64,000 nt of DNA from assembly GCA_020349245.1 (NCBI GenBank), contig CP070764.1:1078817-1142816 (forward strand), in the 5' to 3' direction. The stretch comes from Chloroflexota bacterium (lineage in GTDB: Bacteria; Chloroflexota; Anaerolineae; Anaerolineales; UBA4823). Both the position numbers and the translations under genes were made by a program. The notes under the pieces are model-generated. The model was not told where the DNA came from. It saw nothing but the letters and a program-made list of their open reading frames with translations, and did no database searches. The stretch's first letter is position 1. Each line of letters begins with the position of its first letter. Positions 49,754 through 58,414 of the stretch are shown here, in pieces.

Positions 49754-50761
49754 TTAGAAATAATTTGCCAGTAAGTAAACTGCAATAGTGTCCAGGATCA
49801 ATCCCAGCATGAAAAGTAAACCGAAACGGCGATTATGAACGAATGCCGCAGCGACAAAGTAATTCGGCCAAACATCTGGATAATCGGCTGGCTTCTCTTC
49901 GGGTTTTGGATTGCGGAAGAGCGGGATGATTTGGAGAAGAACTGGTATAGAGAAAAGAACGATCAGCATCAAGGGCGTAAAAAATCCGATCAGAACAAGA
50001 TATCCGACCAAAATGTATTGCAGGAAAATCATCCCCGTAGCAGTATATCGGGATACTTTCTCACCGATTATGACAGGCAATGTATGGATACCCCGCGATT
50101 TGTCCATGTCATACTTATCAATATGTTTTCCAAAAATCACGCCTGTTACTCCGAGTGCATACGGCATACTGGCGAGAATTACATTCCATTCCCAGACACC
50201 TGTAATCACAAAATAACCGCCCCCGATCATCAAGGGACCCCATACGATGAGCACCGCGATTTCACCCAGTCCGATATATTTCAAAGGCCAGGTATAGAAC
50301 AAGACGAAAAAAGCACCCATGGCTAGCAGGATCCAAGTTATTCCACCTTGCAGAAGGATCAAAGCTACACCCGCTAATAAGGCGATCAATCCACTTACTG
50401 CCGCGTAGGTGAGAAGTTGTCTGGTTGTCATGAGTCCATGTACCAAGCACTGGGGACCATACTGAGAGCGATAATAATTGTCTTCGTCGACCCCGCGTTT
50501 GTAATCTGTGTAATCATTCAGCAGGTTATTTGTGGCATGAGCCATGATTAAACCGATCGTGAGAAGTAGCCACCTTCCCAAGTTGAAGGACCCATCATGG
50601 GCAGCAAGGATCCCGGCAATCGCGGCAGAGATAAAGGTCATGATCAGAACTGCTGCTCGACTGGAAATTAACCACTTGGAAATTACATCCAGCTGTTGCC
50701 ATTCTTCTAAACTGATGCGAGGGATAACTTGTAAGGCTTTTCGCCACATGGTTACATTCAT
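49754..50761 (-). CDS. UbiA-family prenyltransferase (MenA-like)
   Basis: A 335-residue membrane protein with about eight or nine helices. The first Asp motif is NNLLNDYTDYKRGVDED (residues 79-94) and the second DKYDMDKSRGIHTLPV; both bind Mg-prenyl diphosphate. The pattern is nearest to MenA, which prenylates dihydroxynaphthoate, but the acceptor cannot be told. It is the last gene of the minus-strand glycan group, 83 nt after the aminotransferase; AGGAG precedes the ATG at 10 nt. Confidence 0.85.
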   Translation of the reverse strand: MNVTMWRKALQVIPRISLEEWQQLDVISKWLISSRAAVLIMTFISAAIAGILAAHDGSFNLGRWLLLTIGLIMAHATNNLLNDYTDYKRGVDEDNYYRSQYGPQCLVHGLMTTRQLLTYAAVSGLIALLAGVALILLQGGITWILLAMGAFFVLFYTWPLKYIGLGEIAVLIVWGPLMIGGGYFVITGVWEWNVILASMPYALGVTGVIFGKHIDKYDMDKSRGIHTLPVIIGEKVSRYTATGMIFLQYILVGYLVLIGFFTPLMLIVLFSIPVLLQIIPLFRNPKPEEKPADYPDVWPNYFVAAAFVHNRRFGLLFMLGLILDTIAVYLLANYF

Positions 50762-50844: not shown

Positions 50845-52032
50845 TTACATACTGTTAATGACCTTGTTCACGGAGTGGTAAACATAATCGACTTGATCTT
50901 CTGTCATTATGCTCGAAAACGGCAATGCTAAACTTCGCTCACCAAGATCTTCGGTTACAGGGAAATCACCAGGTTGATAACCGAATTGAGAGACCATATA
51001 CGGTTGCAGGTGAATTGGTAAGAAATATGGCCGGGCTGGGACACCGTAATCGATTAATTTTTGGGCAACTGAATTTCGATCAATTCCCTTCACAAAACGA
51101 ATCACGTAGACGAACCAGCTCATACGGGTTGTGGTAGGCGCAATCGACGGGATTTCGACCCCTGGTATCGTCCGCAACCTCTCGTTGTACCAGTCTGCAA
51201 CTTTTGCCCTATTATCAATCAGAGAGTCAAGACGGGTGACCTGAACGGCACCCAGAGCAGCCCGCATCTCGTCCAAGCGGTAGTTATACCCGAGGTGTGT
51301 ATGTTGCAGCCATGTATCTCCAGGAGCCCGGCCTTGATTTCGTAAGGCACGCATATAATCTGCTGCATTATCGTCCTCAGTGATGATGATAGCGCCCTCT
51401 CCAGTAGTCATCTGCTTATTGGGATAAAATGCAAATACTCCATAATTTCCCAGCGTGCCTGCTTTTTTCCCCTTGTACTCAGCTCCCAGGGCTTCGCAAG
51501 AATCTTCAATTATGATCAATCCATTCTTTGAAGCAATTTTAACCAGCGGATCAAAGTTTGCAGGTTGACCAAACACATCGACCGGAAGTAAGGCTTTCAA
51601 TTGCTTGGCGTTCTCTGCACCTCTGCGGGGCAACCATCTTTTCTGGGCAGCCTCTCCCATATGGAGGTCTTGAACCGCCTGGTTGACGAGCTGAGGATCG
51701 ATATTACCAGAAATTGGATCAATATCCACAAAGACCGGGATCGCCTGTTCAAAGAGGATAACATTACTTGAAGCAACAAATGAAAATGGTGTGGTGATCA
51801 CCATGTCCCCCTGCTCAATCCCGGCAGCGCGCACACACAAATGGAGGCCAGCAGTACCTGAACTTACTCCGATCGCATGTTTTGTACCCACGTAAGATTG
51901 AATAGCAGTCTCGAAATCCCCAATTCGAGCCCCCATGCTTAAAATGGGTGTCTGCAGCACCTCTGCAACAGCCTGCCTTTCAGCTTCAGTAATATCTGGA
52001 GATGACATCGGGATTTGCATTTTTATATTCAC
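50845..52032 (-). CDS. DegT/DnrJ/EryC1 sugar aminotransferase (PglE-like)
   Basis: A 395-residue PLP enzyme that aminates a keto-sugar nucleotide. GVSSGTAGLHLCVRAAGI, TPFSFVASSNVILF, the PLP-stacking IIEDSCEALGAEYKGKKAG and the Schiff-base lysine in AFYPNKQMTTGEGAIIIT are all present, as is the YNYRLDEMRAALG motif. Together with the acyltransferase and phosphoglycosyl transferase upstream it recalls PglE of the bacillosamine pathway; the 4,6-dehydratase (PglF) is not in the window. GTG start at 52032 is chosen for the GGAG 6 nt upstream; ATG 52020 is possible. Confidence 0.9.
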   Translation of the reverse strand: MNIKMQIPMSSPDITEAERQAVAEVLQTPILSMGARIGDFETAIQSYVGTKHAIGVSSGTAGLHLCVRAAGIEQGDMVITTPFSFVASSNVILFEQAIPVFVDIDPISGNIDPQLVNQAVQDLHMGEAAQKRWLPRRGAENAKQLKALLPVDVFGQPANFDPLVKIASKNGLIIIEDSCEALGAEYKGKKAGTLGNYGVFAFYPNKQMTTGEGAIIITEDDNAADYMRALRNQGRAPGDTWLQHTHLGYNYRLDEMRAALGAVQVTRLDSLIDNRAKVADWYNERLRTIPGVEIPSIAPTTTRMSWFVYVIRFVKGIDRNSVAQKLIDYGVPARPYFLPIHLQPYMVSQFGYQPGDFPVTEDLGERSLALPFSSIMTEDQVDYVYHSVNKVINSM

Positions 52033-52074
52033 ATGCTGCTCCAAATCGGGAGAGGAGGTAGGCGTTCTTTCAAT

Positions 52075-53196
52075 TCAGTCTGGCCAGATCATTCCTGCTC
52101 TGACAATTCCATGATCAGGAACATCAGATTTTATTGTCGCAGAGTTTCCTATCCGGGCGTATTCTCCAATCGAGACACCCAGGTTGATGGTCACTCCCAT
52201 CCCGACTAGGGTTCCCTGCCCAATTGTTACCCCTCCAGCTAATATTGCCCCGGGGGAGATATTGGCAAAGGTATCTAGCTTGCAATCGTGGGACACCACG
52301 GCACCCGTGTTTACAATTACGCCAAAACCAAGACTGACTTCACTGCCGATATATGCTTGGGGAAATATCTGAACACCAGAAGAAATCTGTGTGCTGCGCT
52401 CAACCACTGCTGAGGGATGAATGATGGGAGGGCAAACAAACCCTTGTTCTGCGAGCAATTGGAATATTTTTATTCTGCTGGAGATATCGCCAATTCCGCC
52501 CACTGCGTTTGCTGCCTGCCGGATGCCTCTTGCAAAAAGATCTGGCAAAATCTGGCTGTTTCCTAACACAGGTATACCCATCACGGAAGTGTTTGGGTCT
52601 AATCCATCATCTACGATTCCATGGATATTGTAGATTCCTTGAGCTAGGATCGTATCGATCACGGATTTGCCGTGACCTCCACCACCATAAACAATGATTT
52701 CTGAAGGGATAGATTCGAATTCCATATCCTGTAATTTTGAGGGTTTATCTAAGTATTCCCGAATTATGTTTTCTGTAACTAGAGGTCCAAAAGGTAATTT
52801 TTCCAAATCAAGATTATTTCGTAATGCCAATTCCAAAGCTGGCTTGGAAATTCGCAGCCCCTCCGGGATTGCAATTTCCCCGGTCTCATCTCGATAGAGG
52901 GTATTACCCTTGGGAATTTTCTTGTCTTCTGCATCCGGTTGCCAATCTCTATCGCTTGCCAAGTAGCAAAATTGGGAACCTGCATAGGCTGTATCTCCCT
53001 CGGCATAATTCAACCCGATTATAAAACCCTCACGTTCAGCAAGCACTTCTGCCGTTGACTTGGTGGTTTCGAGAGTGCAGAGCAGCTCTCCATGTTGGAC
53101 ATATTGACCTTCTGCAATTGCGAGAGATACGATCCTGGATTCGGGTTCGTTTGGATTTAGCAGCGGGATGTTCACTCGGATGGCAGGTGTGTTCAT
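52075..53196 (-). CDS. Lipoyl domain-subunit-binding domain-NeuD/PglD acyltransferase fusion
   Basis: A 373-residue three-part protein. Residues 5-80 are a lipoyl/biotinyl domain with the modified lysine K46 in LETTKSTAEV. Residues about 113-150 (GLRISKPALELALRNNLD then FGPLVTENIIREYL) resemble the peripheral subunit-binding domain of dehydrogenase E2 proteins. Residues 166-373 are a NeuD/PglD sugar acyltransferase: Rossmann-like IIVYGGGGHGKSVIDTI, then a left-handed beta-helix with NTGAVVSHDCKLD (catalytic His303) and ISPGAILAGGVTIG. The usual CoA-dependent catalytic domain of E2 is absent. It follows E1 beta by 41 nt. Inferred role: moving an acyl group from a 2-oxoacid to an amino sugar. 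Confidence 0.88.
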   Translation of the reverse strand: MNTPAIRVNIPLLNPNEPESRIVSLAIAEGQYVQHGELLCTLETTKSTAEVLAEREGFIIGLNYAEGDTAYAGSQFCYLASDRDWQPDAEDKKIPKGNTLYRDETGEIAIPEGLRISKPALELALRNNLDLEKLPFGPLVTENIIREYLDKPSKLQDMEFESIPSEIIVYGGGGHGKSVIDTILAQGIYNIHGIVDDGLDPNTSVMGIPVLGNSQILPDLFARGIRQAANAVGGIGDISSRIKIFQLLAEQGFVCPPIIHPSAVVERSTQISSGVQIFPQAYIGSEVSLGFGVIVNTGAVVSHDCKLDTFANISPGAILAGGVTIGQGTLVGMGVTINLGVSIGEYARIGNSATIKSDVPDHGIVRAGMIWPD

Positions 53197-53237
53197 GGAC
53201 TGTGGAGCTCAATCAGGATTATATTCAAAGCCATTAT

Positions 53238-54254
53238 TTATACCATCTTTTTTACTGCCTGAACAATATCGCCAACATTGGGGAGAACTGCACTCTCTAA
53301 TGTCAACGAGGCGGGTATGGGATTGTCTGAACTCGCAACCCGGCTGGCAGAAAGTATTTTACCGCTGAGCAATTCGACACTGCGTGCCAGCACTTCAGCT
53401 CCCCAACCTAGAGTGTAGGTACCTTCTTCTATGACTAATAATTTATTCGTACGATTTACCGAATCTATGATTGGTTGCATTTGTAATGGAGCAATTTGGG
53501 TAAAAACAATTAATTCGACGAAGATCTCGTCTTGGTATGCCAGCTGCAGAGCAGCTTGAAGGCTGAGCTCAGCCATGTAACCATAAGTTACAAAAGTAGC
53601 TATTGGTTCCGGTGCATCTCGAATTCGAAGTATGGTAGTAGGGGCGTAATCGAGTTTATGCTGGATATCGATATTGTTAAGCGTGAAATCATCCTGTTTG
53701 CCTGGATTCAACAGGGGTTTGGCATATTGAATCTTATTTTCAATGTATAAAACCGGATCATCATCCTGAAAAATCGCATCGAGTAAGAGCTGCCCCGGAT
53801 CTGAAAATGTACACGGGGCCAGTATGCGGATTCCAGGGATGCCGATGAATAGCTTCTCGAGCGATTGGCTGTGAGTCGGTCCATATCCTCTGCGACCCCC
53901 CATCGGTACCCGAACTACCAGGGGAACAGAAACCTGGTCATTGTACATGAAGCGAAATTTGGCTGCATGGTTAATTAATTGGTCCGCGACCAGGGTTACA
54001 AAATCTCCAAACATGATCTCCACGACCGGTCGTAAACCGCGCAACGCCATACCTGTAGCAACACCAAATATCCCGGCTTCGGATACCGGGGTTGTCAAGA
54101 CTCGATCAGGGTAAGCACTGGATAATCCTTGGGTAACTTTAAACGCACCACCATATGGGTCGAGGATATCCTCACCCAGAATGAAGACCCGGTTGTCTGT
54201 TTCCAGTGCTGTGTGAAGAGCCCTGTTCAGGGAGTTTAGAACTGTTATCATCAT
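53238..54254 (-). CDS. 2-oxoacid dehydrogenase E1 component, beta subunit
   Basis: A 338-residue transketolase-like beta subunit. FILGEDILDPYGGAFKVT, the thiamine-contacting Glu59 in TTPVSEAGIFGVATG, the GRRGYGPTHSQSLEKLF segment with His128, and DDDPVLYIENKIQY are conserved, so the active site looks intact. With E1 alpha it would decarboxylate pyruvate or a related 2-oxoacid on thiamine diphosphate and acylate a lipoyl group. Its only lipoyl partner here is the sugar acyltransferase fusion downstream. ATG 54254 or 54251. Confidence 0.92.
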   Translation of the reverse strand: MMITVLNSLNRALHTALETDNRVFILGEDILDPYGGAFKVTQGLSSAYPDRVLTTPVSEAGIFGVATGMALRGLRPVVEIMFGDFVTLVADQLINHAAKFRFMYNDQVSVPLVVRVPMGGRRGYGPTHSQSLEKLFIGIPGIRILAPCTFSDPGQLLLDAIFQDDDPVLYIENKIQYAKPLLNPGKQDDFTLNNIDIQHKLDYAPTTILRIRDAPEPIATFVTYGYMAELSLQAALQLAYQDEIFVELIVFTQIAPLQMQPIIDSVNRTNKLLVIEEGTYTLGWGAEVLARSVELLSGKILSASRVASSDNPIPASLTLESAVLPNVGDIVQAVKKMV

Positions 54255-54287
54255 AAATCAACTAATTTGAATACATCAATCTCCAGA

Positions 54288-55214
54288 TCAGGTTGCCGGT
54301 GAGTCTGATTTTGCTTTTTGGAAGGCGTCCACAACTTGCTCAGCGACCTCGTTTTGAATCTGTTTGATTGCTTCAGGGTCAAGCCGGGGAGTCATAATTG
54401 ATATCGGATCGTGATTTTCACGGATGTCTTGGATCTCTCTTTCTGGACGGGTATCATCACCTTTCGAATGTGGGCCGAAACGATATGTATTGAGAATTAG
54501 CCCGCGAGGTGAGCAGTTTTCTCTCACTTCAGTGACCAATCGAGCAGCCGTAGATCGGATTATCAAGACATCACTGGTTTCAAGTACTTTCGTTTCTATC
54601 CCGAAAGCAGAAAAGCGCTCAGGAATGCTTCCTGCAAGGTGGTGTTCAATTGGGGTGGTTTGCGCGATGCGGTTATTCTCCAACACGAAAAGCACTGGTG
54701 CAGACCACAAGGAGGCTAAATTGAGTGACTCGTACAGGACACCTTCTCCCAGTGCACCGTCACCGATAAAGAGAATAGTAATTGCCTCACGGTGATTAAA
54801 TTTCTCGGCTAGAGCCATTCCGGTTCCGATGGGTGAAGTGCCCCCTAAAACGCCATTTGAGTAAAAATTCTTCCAATGCAGGTGTTGTGACCCACCGCGG
54901 CCTGCACAGACTCCGCTTGGCTTTCCCATTAATTCAGCGAACAAAGCCCGCATATCACCACCGTAAGCGAGAAAATGCCCATGGCTGCGGTGATTACTGA
55001 CGACAATGTCTTCAGCGCTGATATTATCCAACACTCCGACGGCATTTGCTTCTTGACCTAGATAAGTATGGGTTGTTCCAAAAAAATACCCCTTCGAAAA
55101 CTCCTCTAACACTGTTTCCTCAAAGCGGCGGATGCGCAGCATTGCCCTGAAAAGTTTTTTGAGCTGGTCTTGTGAATATTGTTCAGGATTGAGAGTAAAG
55201 GCTGGGTTCATCAT
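54288..55214 (-). CDS. 2-oxoacid dehydrogenase E1 component, alpha subunit
   Basis: A 308-residue alpha subunit with MLRIRRFEETVLEEFSKGY, VVSNHRSHGHFLAYG, and the thiamine diphosphate motif from GDGALGEGVLYESLNLAS (residue 151) to LENN (178-181). Where classical E1 alpha proteins have a phosphorylation-loop-like GHS motif, this one reads GPHSKGDDTR. The substrate 2-oxoacid cannot be determined. It starts 24 nt after the phosphoglycosyl transferase and leads directly to E1 beta; no E3 gene is nearby. Confidence 0.92.
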   Translation of the reverse strand: MMNPAFTLNPEQYSQDQLKKLFRAMLRIRRFEETVLEEFSKGYFFGTTHTYLGQEANAVGVLDNISAEDIVVSNHRSHGHFLAYGGDMRALFAELMGKPSGVCAGRGGSQHLHWKNFYSNGVLGGTSPIGTGMALAEKFNHREAITILFIGDGALGEGVLYESLNLASLWSAPVLFVLENNRIAQTTPIEHHLAGSIPERFSAFGIETKVLETSDVLIIRSTAARLVTEVRENCSPRGLILNTYRFGPHSKGDDTRPEREIQDIRENHDPISIMTPRLDPEAIKQIQNEVAEQVVDAFQKAKSDSPAT

Positions 55215-55238: not shown

Positions 55239-55886
55239 TCAATCCAGATGATCGGTTTCATTGCTTTGTTTTGTGCCCATGAACTCCACCGCTGAAATGT
55301 GGCCCGGTTCATTGATCCCTTCCCGCAGAATCACTTTCCAGATAGTCTGGGCAATAATTTTCATATCCAATCCAAATGTCCAATGGTCCACATACCAGAC
55401 ATCATACGAAAACTTCTCCTCCCAGGTAATTGCATTTCGGCCGTTGATTTGTGCCCAACCTGTCATTCCCGGGAGAACGTCATGCCGCCGCGCTTGTTCC
55501 GGGGTATAGCGGGATAAATACTGCATCAAAAGGGGCCGGGGACCAACAATACTCATTTCGCCTTTGAAGATATTGATCAATTCTGGAAGTTCGTCTAGAC
55601 TTGAAGCCCGTAAGAATTTACCCACCCCCAGCAAGCGATCTTCATCAGAAAGCAGCCGACCTTGTGGATCTCTTTCGCTGGTCATCGTGCGAAATTTATA
55701 ATTAGTAAACGGCTTGCCTTTATAACCTGGTCGCATCTGTCGAAAGAAAATCGGAAATCCATCAACAAGAATAATCACCAAACCTATGACAATCAATAAT
55801 GGTGATAGAAGTAGCAATCCCATTGAGGAGAAAGTTATATCAAATAATCTTTTACTGGTAGGAACGTCTTGAGGGAAAAACGTCAT
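55239..55886 (-). CDS. PglC-like phosphoglycosyl transferase
   Basis: A 215-residue monotopic enzyme: one N-terminal re-entrant hydrophobic helix (about residues 15-42), PIFFRQMRPGYKGKPF, YKFRTM, the catalytic Asp-Glu pair D98-E99 in SSLDELPELINI, and MSIVGPRPLL. It transfers a phospho-sugar from a UDP-sugar to a polyprenyl phosphate. Its short single-domain length is like PglC rather than WbaP/WcaJ. ATG 55886 is 5 nt after the pilin stop; a TTG at 55895 would overlap it. Confidence 0.93.
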   Translation of the reverse strand: MTFFPQDVPTSKRLFDITFSSMGLLLLSPLLIVIGLVIILVDGFPIFFRQMRPGYKGKPFTNYKFRTMTSERDPQGRLLSDEDRLLGVGKFLRASSLDELPELINIFKGEMSIVGPRPLLMQYLSRYTPEQARRHDVLPGMTGWAQINGRNAITWEEKFSYDVWYVDHWTFGLDMKIIAQTIWKVILREGINEPGHISAVEFMGTKQSNETDHLD

Positions 55887-55891
55887 TCGGA

Positions 55892-56038
55892 TCAAATACT
55901 TTGAATGATGTTGCTGTAGAGGTTACCAATTGCGGGACCAAATAGATAGATAACAATAATCACTATTATGGCGACCAAAATCAAGATCAATGCATATTCC
56001 AATAAACTCTGTCCTTTTGCTTTGTTGGAAGTCGTCAT
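55892..56038 (-). CDS. Flp/Fap-type pilin
   Basis: A 48-residue protein: a short basic leader ending KAKG, then QSLLEYALILILVAIIVIIV and a tail of about 18 residues. The leader-Gly followed by a hydrophobic helix with Glu at position 5 is the signature of class IVb Flp pilins, processed by a prepilin peptidase. AAGGAG lies 6 nt before the ATG. No tad secretion genes are in the window. It is 5 nt upstream of the phosphoglycosyl transferase on the same strand. Confidence 0.85.
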   Translation of the reverse strand: MTTSNKAKGQSLLEYALILILVAIIVIIVIYLFGPAIGNLYSNIIQSI

Positions 56039-56359: not shown

Positions 56360-58414
56360 ATGAATTTGAGGTTTGCTCGTAGGGAAGCACTTCATTTCAT
56401 CGCAGTGGTGGCTATTCTTGTCATAACTCTCGGATATTTATTTGGCTCATCTGGGGCGGTAATTAATACCCTCTATTACCCGTTGGCCAATCACTTAAAT
56501 CCAGTTCCTGCAGATATATCAGTGCGATTGCTTATCTCTGAAGTCATGTCAAATCCCAGCGGCCAAGAACCAGCTCTGGAGTGGGTGGAGATTCATAATA
56601 GAAGCGGGCAAAGCATTAATTTATTTGAGTATAAGGTTGGAGACGGTGAAACGATGGGTGACACGGAGGGAATGTACCAATTCCCGGCTGGTGCTGTCAT
56701 TGAGCCAGGGCAGGTAGTTGTCATGGCAAACCAGGGATTGCCGTTCAGCCAGATTTACGGCTATTTACCAGATTATGAGCTCACCGATAGCCATCCGGTG
56801 ATCTCGGATATGATCAAGTATCGTGATTGGTCAACTGGGTCAATCAATCTGAATAATTCTGGAGATGAAATCCTACTGCTGGATAAAGGGAATCGGATTC
56901 TGGATTCAATTTCCTGGGGTAATTCAATATTTGCTTTTTCTCCAGCAGTCAGTTCAGCAAAGGATGGTCAATCACACGAGAGATTTCCTGCAAATGTTGA
57001 TCGCAACCTTGCAGCTGACTGGATCGCGCAGTCTTCTCCCCAACCAGGCTCAGTCAGGATAAGTCCTCCAACACCAGAAAATTCACCTACCCCAACTGGG
57101 ATCCCAACTTATTGCGACTCATCTTCACTGCTGATCTCAGAGGTATTGTATGACCCAAGTCATAGCACCGACCCCATTGGCGAATGGATTGAAATATTTA
57201 ATTGGGGGAATGCAGCGGTTTACTTGGGATGTTTCTTTATCGGAGATGAAGAAACAAAAGGGGGAGGAGAGGGGATGTATACATTTCCCGAGGAGACGAG
57301 TATTCAATCCGGTGAAGTCATAATCGTGGCATACCAAGCCTCTGATTTTCTTTCCCAATATGGATTCAACCCAAGTTTTGAATTAGCAGAATCAAATCCC
57401 CAGGTTCCAAATCTCATCAAGAACAAATCTTGGGCTTCGGGGAGCATCCAGCTAAGCAATAGCGGTGATGATGTATTGCTGATGAATATGGAGGAGAATA
57501 TTGTTGATGCTGTCTCCTGGGGAAACTCTGAATTTGCTTTTTCCCCCTCAGTGCCGTTGGTTAATCCGGGTTTATCCCTGATGCGCCAACCTGCGGATGT
57601 TGATTCTAATTCTGCCGAGGACTGGGTGGAAAATTCTTCACCAAATCCTGGAAGGATTGATTTCAATCCGCCAGATTCTTCACCAGTTTCTACTAGCACG
57701 TCTAGACCAGACGAAACAAGAACACCGGTAAATTCGTCCACACCTAGAAAAACTCCGACCAGAACAAGGCCTCCAACCAAGACTCCGACGAAAATACCAA
57801 CCATGACGAAGACTCCGACTGCAACCGCGACTCTCACAATCACTCCCACAAGGACATTGACGACAACGGCCACACCTTCTGTAGAACCACTCCCAAGCGT
57901 GGTAATTAACGAGATACACGCTGATCCGCATCCAAGCTTGGGTGATGCCAATCTCGATGGGACTGTGGATTCTGCGGATGATGAGTTTATCGAGCTAGTC
58001 AATGATTCCTCCTTCCCTCTTGATGTGAGCGGATGGGTGCTACGAGATGCGATGGCGGATAGACATATATTTCCTGGAGACTCCATCATCAGGGCAGGTT
58101 GCAGTCTAGTTGTTTTTTCGGGTGGTGATCCCACAGGGACTTTTGGCAACAGTAGTGTTCAACTAGCATCCAGTGGAAATTTAGGATTGAACGATCGTGG
58201 GGATATTATCAATCTATATGATTCACAAATGGAGCTTGTTGCTAACCTAATTTATGGTGAGGAGGCTGGCGACGATCAATCGATTACACGTGAACCGGAT
58301 ATTACCGGAGGAGAACCGCTAAGAAAACACAGCTTAGCGGCTGACTCAAATGGTTCGTTGTATTCACCTGGTACGAAAATTGACGGAAGTTACTTTCCAG
58401 GCTGCTCAGATTAG
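56360..58414 (+). CDS. Surface protein with three lamin-tail domains
   Basis: A 684-residue exported protein. An N-terminal hydrophobic helix (residues 11-33) is an uncleaved anchor or signal. Three lamin-tail (LTD) domains start near residues 55, 255 and 513 (VRLLISEVMSNP, SSLLISEVLYDP, SVVINEIHADP). The first two are close copies: SWGNSIFAFSPAV and SWGNSEFAFSPSV. A Thr/Pro/Lys linker (about 445-510) precedes the third, which contains a calcium-loop-like insert with D529, N531, D533, G534, D537 and D540. Function unknown; LTDs in bacteria occur in cell-surface proteins and nucleases, and no nuclease domain is seen. Confidence 0.85.
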   Translation: MNLRFARREALHFIAVVAILVITLGYLFGSSGAVINTLYYPLANHLNPVPADISVRLLISEVMSNPSGQEPALEWVEIHNRSGQSINLFEYKVGDGETMGDTEGMYQFPAGAVIEPGQVVVMANQGLPFSQIYGYLPDYELTDSHPVISDMIKYRDWSTGSINLNNSGDEILLLDKGNRILDSISWGNSIFAFSPAVSSAKDGQSHERFPANVDRNLAADWIAQSSPQPGSVRISPPTPENSPTPTGIPTYCDSSSLLISEVLYDPSHSTDPIGEWIEIFNWGNAAVYLGCFFIGDEETKGGGEGMYTFPEETSIQSGEVIIVAYQASDFLSQYGFNPSFELAESNPQVPNLIKNKSWASGSIQLSNSGDDVLLMNMEENIVDAVSWGNSEFAFSPSVPLVNPGLSLMRQPADVDSNSAEDWVENSSPNPGRIDFNPPDSSPVSTSTSRPDETRTPVNSSTPRKTPTRTRPPTKTPTKIPTMTKTPTATATLTITPTRTLTTTATPSVEPLPSVVINEIHADPHPSLGDANLDGTVDSADDEFIELVNDSSFPLDVSGWVLRDAMADRHIFPGDSIIRAGCSLVVFSGGDPTGTFGNSSVQLASSGNLGLNDRGDIINLYDSQMELVANLIYGEEAGDDQSITREPDITGGEPLRKHSLAADSNGSLYSPGTKIDGSYFPGCSD
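57700..57890 (+). repeat. Degenerate repeat coding for the Thr/Pro linker
   Basis: About 190 bases encode recurring TPT, TKTPT and TRTLT-like units. The DNA repeat is imperfect, with variable unit length, as expected for a low-complexity protein linker that may be O-glycosylated. Confidence 0.6.

Follow-up and report, generated by a model that had tools for sequence, protein, structure and literature searches.

Organization of the operon

Why would a bacterium place the two E1 genes of a 2-oxoacid dehydrogenase next to a gene whose product carries an E2-like lipoyl domain but a sugar acyltransferase core? The question is raised by an operon in the window, by which we mean the whole 64,000-nucleotide stretch of Chloroflexota DNA that we analyzed (contig CP070764.1, positions 1,078,817 to 1,142,816). 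On the minus strand, this operon encodes in order a Bac_transf protein, E1 alpha, E1 beta, a 373-aa fusion protein, a DegT protein and a UbiA protein, with successive gaps of 24, 33, 41, 30 and 83 bases (Table 1). The original prediction, made from the sequence alone, had placed E1 alpha, E1 beta and a third gene on one strand with the second and third of these gaps between them, and the coordinates agree; the thiamine-site residues that it had named in E1 beta, together with the GDG...ENN motif of E1 alpha, were all present. The UbiA-family gene may be a mere neighbor of the operon. We found no E3 gene in the operon, and Pfam searches indicated that the E2 CoA-acyltransferase core (PF00198) is absent from both the fusion and the operon. 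Divergent from the operon, at 56360-58414 on the plus strand, lies a gene whose 684-aa product combines three lamin-tail (LTD) domains with a stretch rich in Thr and Pro.

Table 1. Positions in the window of the operon genes and of the modules and key residues of the fusion protein
Feature	Position	Strand	Evidence
PglC/EPS-type phosphoglycosyl transferase (Bac_transf), first gene of the operon	55239..55895	-	Pfam Bac_transf 1.2e-63
E1 alpha, ThDP site intact (GDG 151-153, NN 180-181, H249)	54288..55214	-	E1_dh 1.1e-52
E1 beta, E59 and H128 conserved	53238..54254	-	Transket_pyr 7.1e-29, Transketolase_C 4.5e-15
E2-like fusion: lipoyl domain, linker, peripheral-subunit-binding domain (PSBD), linker, NeuD/PglD N-acyltransferase	52075..53196	-	
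Fusion lipoyl domain, residues 1-88	52933..53196	-	Pfam Biotin_lipoyl; pLDDT 83-98; PDB lipoyl fold matches
K46 codon, expected lipoyl-lysine at hairpin turn	53059..53061	-	K in 46/46 fusions
Fusion PSBD, residues 112-150	52747..52863	-	Fold search, hhalign
Fusion NeuD/PglD catalytic part, residues 165-373	52078..52704	-	NeuD_NnaD above cut-off; PerB fold match
Catalytic H303 codon (equivalent to PglD H125, PerB H141)	52288..52290	-	H in 45/46 fusions; PMC8040287
DegT/PglE/PseC-like sugar 4-aminotransferase, presumed maker of the amino acceptor	50845..52044	-	DegT_DnrJ_EryC1 9.7e-107
UbiA-family prenyltransferase, downstream	49754..50761	-	UbiA 1.2e-33

Domain composition of the fusion protein

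Pfam assigned Biotin_lipoyl to residues 18-75 of the fusion (3.6e-8) and called this domain in 27 out of 27 fusions; it also assigned PglD_N to residues 167-246 (8.6e-14) and matched Hexapep. Against the NCBIfam model NeuD_NnaD (TIGR03570), the fusion scored 169.5 bits, above the curated cut-off of 160.8. An AlphaFold2 monomer prediction, obtained from an alignment of 27 fusions, recovered every module when combined with a fold search. The predicted lipoyl barrel was ordered, with K46 at the turn between strands 38-43 and 48-52; low-confidence linkers (95-106 and 152-162) flanked an ordered two-helix domain (118-150), and the PglD part came last. A Foldseek search of the PDB with this model returned PerB (1.9e-8, 32% identity) and the E2 models ODO2 (2.6e-7) and ODP2 (5.8e-7), with NgPglB and PDH lipoyl domains also among the matches. 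These results bear out the earlier description of an E2-like lipoyl domain with K46 in the motif ETTKS, followed by a catalytic part of the NeuD/PglD type, with H303 in the motif VSHDC, rather than an E2 transacetylase.

The original prediction had also proposed a subunit-binding domain at about residues 113-150. Pfam did not call E3_binding on the two-helix domain, and the usual GTGPGGR loop was missing. Yet its 11 best PDB matches were all solved PSBDs or PSBD-containing E2 models (E values of at least 0.35, TM 0.6-0.75), and the domain modeled alone reached a pLDDT of 90. Of the three best PDB hits of a profile built from the domain, two were PSBD chains of E2, albeit weak ones (E 0.038), and hhalign gave 90% against the PSBDs in the E2s encoded by the window's own genome. 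The proposed domain thus held up, and the series of lipoyl domain, linker, PSBD, linker and PglD part therefore points to an E2 chassis carrying another core.

Conservation of the active sites

The lipoyl lysine K46 was kept in 46 out of 46 fusions, which excludes the lipoyl domain being a dead relic. H303 was kept in 45 out of 46 fusions, and the E1 catalytic residues were kept in 26 out of 26 loci. In the structures of Pcryo_0637 and PglD, two Asp residues bind UDP, the active-site His is His142 or His125, respectively, and Gly160 forms the oxyanion hole (PMC8040287). Aligned to these proteins, the fusion has D196/D197, H303 and G321 as equivalents, all of them conserved, and the UDP-sugar-binding residues D196/D197 and H175 were invariant.

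Alignment of the fusion PglD domain with standalone PglD proteins yielded no residue signature of CoA loss, and the CoA-contacting features of the domain showed no obvious loss either. L330, found in 46 out of 46 fusions, was Gln in 22 out of 22 standalones, and T297 was lost in the standalones (P0001 numbering); because the CoA-dependent PerB and PglD also carry Thr at position 297, we do not claim these residues as a mark of CoA loss.

The nearest solved relatives of the E1 were pyruvate-type enzymes, and acetyl is therefore the default acyl group. We searched Pei 2008 (PMC2663715) for E1 specificity residues and found none. The suggestion that the 2-oxoacid sets unusual acyl groups thus gained no positive support.

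Distribution of the fusion and its linkage to E1

We sampled 400 genomes across Chloroflexota and 400 within the window's order, most of them drafts, and searched for the same domain architecture and its neighbors. In the phylum-wide sample, full-length fusions occurred only in the window's own order; in the sample from the order, about 120 out of 400 genomes carried one (counted as rows matching from the lipoyl domain onward). This recurrence excludes a chance fusion or an assembly artifact. No fusion was found in plasmid records, and viral contigs yielded standalone relatives only. One scan of genome contigs gave a single hit, from the same genus as the window's genome.

Among the relatives' loci read in context, 35 out of 37 had the fusion preceded by E1 alpha and then E1 beta, all on the same strand; of the two exceptions, one ends at a contig edge and the other (L094) has no E1. 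A sugar transferase was present in 19 out of 37 contexts, an aminotransferase in 16 and a UbiA gene in 11, so that E1 is linked to the fusion more tightly than either the sugar transferase or the aminotransferase. By contrast, E1 accompanied a close standalone PglD in 0 out of 22 loci (Fisher p ~3e-15 for fusion versus standalone loci, the rows being related by descent and not independent). The whole operon recurred in identical order at locus L006, from a Chloroflexota MAG of the same genus. The fusion-linked E1 of the window falls in a clade apart from the conventional E1s of the window's own genome.

Several variants of the layout were also observed. E1 alpha and E1 beta form one open frame of 675-700 aa at L093:4591-6618 and L105:5163-7265. 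In the window's family, a zinc-ribbon/NHL beta-propeller gene lies between E1 beta and the fusion at L093:6673-7953 and L142:8031-9302, and gaps of comparable length at three further loci point to the same insertion there. At L059:2-1324, from a more distant relative, Bac_transf and PglD are fused in a 440-aa protein, followed by a DegT gene.

Evolutionary history of the fusion

In a tree of PglD domains rooted with outgroups, the standalone forms nested within the fusion clade and may represent one clade. The lipoyl domain, the PSBD and E1 were therefore lost together, once or twice. One half-decayed copy was found (L120:7857-8798, genome G638): its motif LETTKS has become LESRRG, with loss of the lipoyl lysine, the PSBD is gone and the locus has no E1, while the PglD part is intact. 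The sole fusion without E1 in its locus (L094:8082-9188, genome G402) has Gln in place of H303.

E2, E3 and lipoate genes in fusion-bearing genomes

Three genomes, G571 (99% complete), G579 (93%) and G367 (94%), each had a single full-length E1 alpha gene, which lies beside the fusion; G571 had one additional E1 alpha match, weak and partial. A search for the E2 core found no match in G579, one weak match in G367 and only weak matches in G571, one of them a 278-aa lone domain distant from E1. All three genomes kept lipoyl synthase and lipoamide dehydrogenase. E3 lipoamide dehydrogenase scored above the cut-off in 18 out of 18 genomes checked, including those without E1 and E2. Lipoyl synthase (LipA) was kept in fusion genomes and was missing from several E2-less standalone-PglD genomes, but because GcvH was present in all genomes checked, LipA alone proves nothing and is weakly supportive at most. 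The standalone-PglD genomes without lipoyl synthase belong to genus g9 of family f3 and also include G697; four g9 genomes lacked full-length E1 and E2 as well but retained GcvH, which suggests lipoate salvage in these genomes.

Conventional E2 genes were present in most fusion-bearing genomes, and the window's own genome also has conventional E1-E2 loci, which we counted against our best explanation. About 1.6 kb past the end of the window, an E2-core fragment adjoins an E3 gene (L132:8462-9058). We rejected this core as a partner of the E1: its upstream part is lost in a masked stretch (N) next to an IS3-like transposase frame, and it does not recur alongside the fusion.

The conventional E2 genes would fit a different reading, in which the fusion uses acetyl-CoA like any ordinary PglD and its lipoyl-PSBD part docks to E1/E3 or to another complex and channels acyl-CoA made by a separate E2. 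Acetyl-CoA is indeed the donor for the characterized PglD, PerB and NeuD enzymes (PMC8040287), and the PglD active-site residues of the fusion are intact. We nevertheless consider this reading unlikely, as the three genomes described above have the fusion's E1 and no normal E2, mere docking does not need the invariant lipoyl lysine, and the sole decayed copy lost that lysine at a locus without E1.

Even less probable, in our view, is a purely regulatory role: through E1 and the lipoyl arm, redox conditions or the 2-oxoacid would switch a PglD that still uses acyl-CoA, and the acyl group itself would not be transferred. The acylation state of a lipoyl group does depend on the 2-oxoacid and on NAD+/NADH, and the predicted structure attaches the PglD domain through flexible linkers, but a switch requires neither the full conservation of the acyl-loading and acyl-transfer machinery nor a dedicated E1 clade co-encoded in 35 out of 37 loci.

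At some cassettes (L042-L047 and L106-L109), neither a sugar transferase nor an aminotransferase was hit in the neighborhood, which makes their acceptor less certain; the notion that lipoyl-bound acyl goes to some other amine or hydroxyl compound, the pgl-like neighbors in the window being a regional accident, is nonetheless the least likely of all, given the invariance of D196/D197 and H175, the NeuD_NnaD score and the location of the standalone relatives L113, L114 and L130 in pglC-pglD-pglE-like clusters.

Proposed mechanism and relation to known systems

We therefore return to the reading that we regard as probable: an assembly of the 2-oxoacid dehydrogenase type that carries a NeuD/PglD sugar N-acyltransferase in place of the E2 core, and in which the acyl group would pass from dihydrolipoyl directly to a UDP-4-amino-sugar. 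The computed evidence for it consists of the architecture, the intact active sites, the strict coupling of E1 and fusion, and their joint loss; from this evidence we infer lipoylation, direct transfer and the likely identities of acyl group and sugar. The fusion almost always comes with an E1 of its own, and the acyl group from the 2-oxoacid therefore probably goes directly to a cell-surface amino sugar. Of the two parts of the original proposal, the first, that E1 works with the fusion as a stand-in for E2, is well supported by co-occurrence, joint loss, the E2-less genomes and the intact residues. The second, that the lipoyl arm gives its acyl group to the amino sugar with no free acyl-CoA in between, would be the simplest explanation, set against a PglD domain that shows no sign of having lost CoA binding.

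In the proposed cycle, an alpha2-beta2 E1 would decarboxylate its 2-oxoacid substrate, for which pyruvate is the likeliest candidate, and load the lipoyl group on K46 by reductive acylation, with the PSBD holding E1 (or E3) in place. The lipoyl arm would then swing into the PglD active site, where H303 would help the 4-amino group of the UDP-amino-sugar, presumably supplied by the operon's DegT enzyme, to accept the acyl group as an amide. The dihydrolipoyl arm would be reoxidized by a lipoamide dehydrogenase encoded elsewhere in the genome, and the PglC-like transferase would pass the N-acyl sugar on to a lipid carrier, destined for a surface glycan. The net reaction would be 2-oxoacid + amino sugar + NAD+ -> N-acyl sugar + CO2 + NADH.

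Like PDH and BCKDH (E1ab-E2-E3), the cassette has a heterotetrameric-type E1 with ThDP residues and, at the operon's E2 position, a lipoyl domain, flexible linker, PSBD, flexible linker and catalytic core. Unlike them, it has a left-handed beta-helix sugar N-acyltransferase in place of the PF00198 core, which transfers to CoA, and its operon has no E3. Because the PF00198 core is absent, the cassette works like a 2-oxoacid dehydrogenase complex but is not a member of that group. With NeuD, PglD, PerB and VioB (TIGR03570), the fusion shares PglD_N, the hexapeptide helix, the catalytic His, the UDP-binding Asp pair, the oxyanion Gly and pglC/pglE-like neighbors. The described members take free acetyl-CoA, whereas the fusion adds N-terminal lipoyl and PSBD modules and a dedicated E1; the fused carrier would argue for a donor other than acetyl-CoA.

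LpxA and LpxD are left-handed beta-helix acyltransferases with UDP-amino-sugar acceptors and an acyl group tethered to ACP. They offer a functional precedent for a beta-helix acyltransferase that takes its acyl group from a carrier, although the tether proposed here is a fused lipoyl domain loaded by E1 rather than phosphopantetheine-ACP. Neisseria PglB (phosphoglycosyl transferase plus acetyltransferase) and similar bifunctional fusions likewise join a PglD-type domain to another pathway module, but the partner in our fusion is an acyl-carrier module and not a glycosyltransferase.

Implications

Our search of the open literature found no lipoyl-PglD protein and no E1-driven sugar acylation. 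The parts are known; as far as could be checked, the combination is new. On balance, and with somewhat less assurance than we attach to the mechanism itself, we think that the cassette represents a dedicated acyl line that does not depend on CoA. It would be the first assembly resembling a 2-oxoacid dehydrogenase in which a lipoyl-bound acyl group is transferred directly, with formation of an amide, to the amine of a small molecule, here a nucleotide amino sugar; it would be ancestral in a clade of one Chloroflexota order and would later have been dismantled in some lineages. The proposal is testable using a few purified proteins. If true, it would break the textbook rule that the E2 of a 2-oxoacid dehydrogenase gives its acyl group to CoA, and it would mean that the lipoyl-PSBD chassis can take a different catalytic core. 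Many genes now likely read as a stray PDH E1 or a plain acetyltransferase would be re-annotated. For these bacteria, it would couple the oxidation of 2-oxoacids chemically and directly to the building of surface glycans, with a modular setting of amino-sugar N-acyl groups through the choice of 2-oxoacid.
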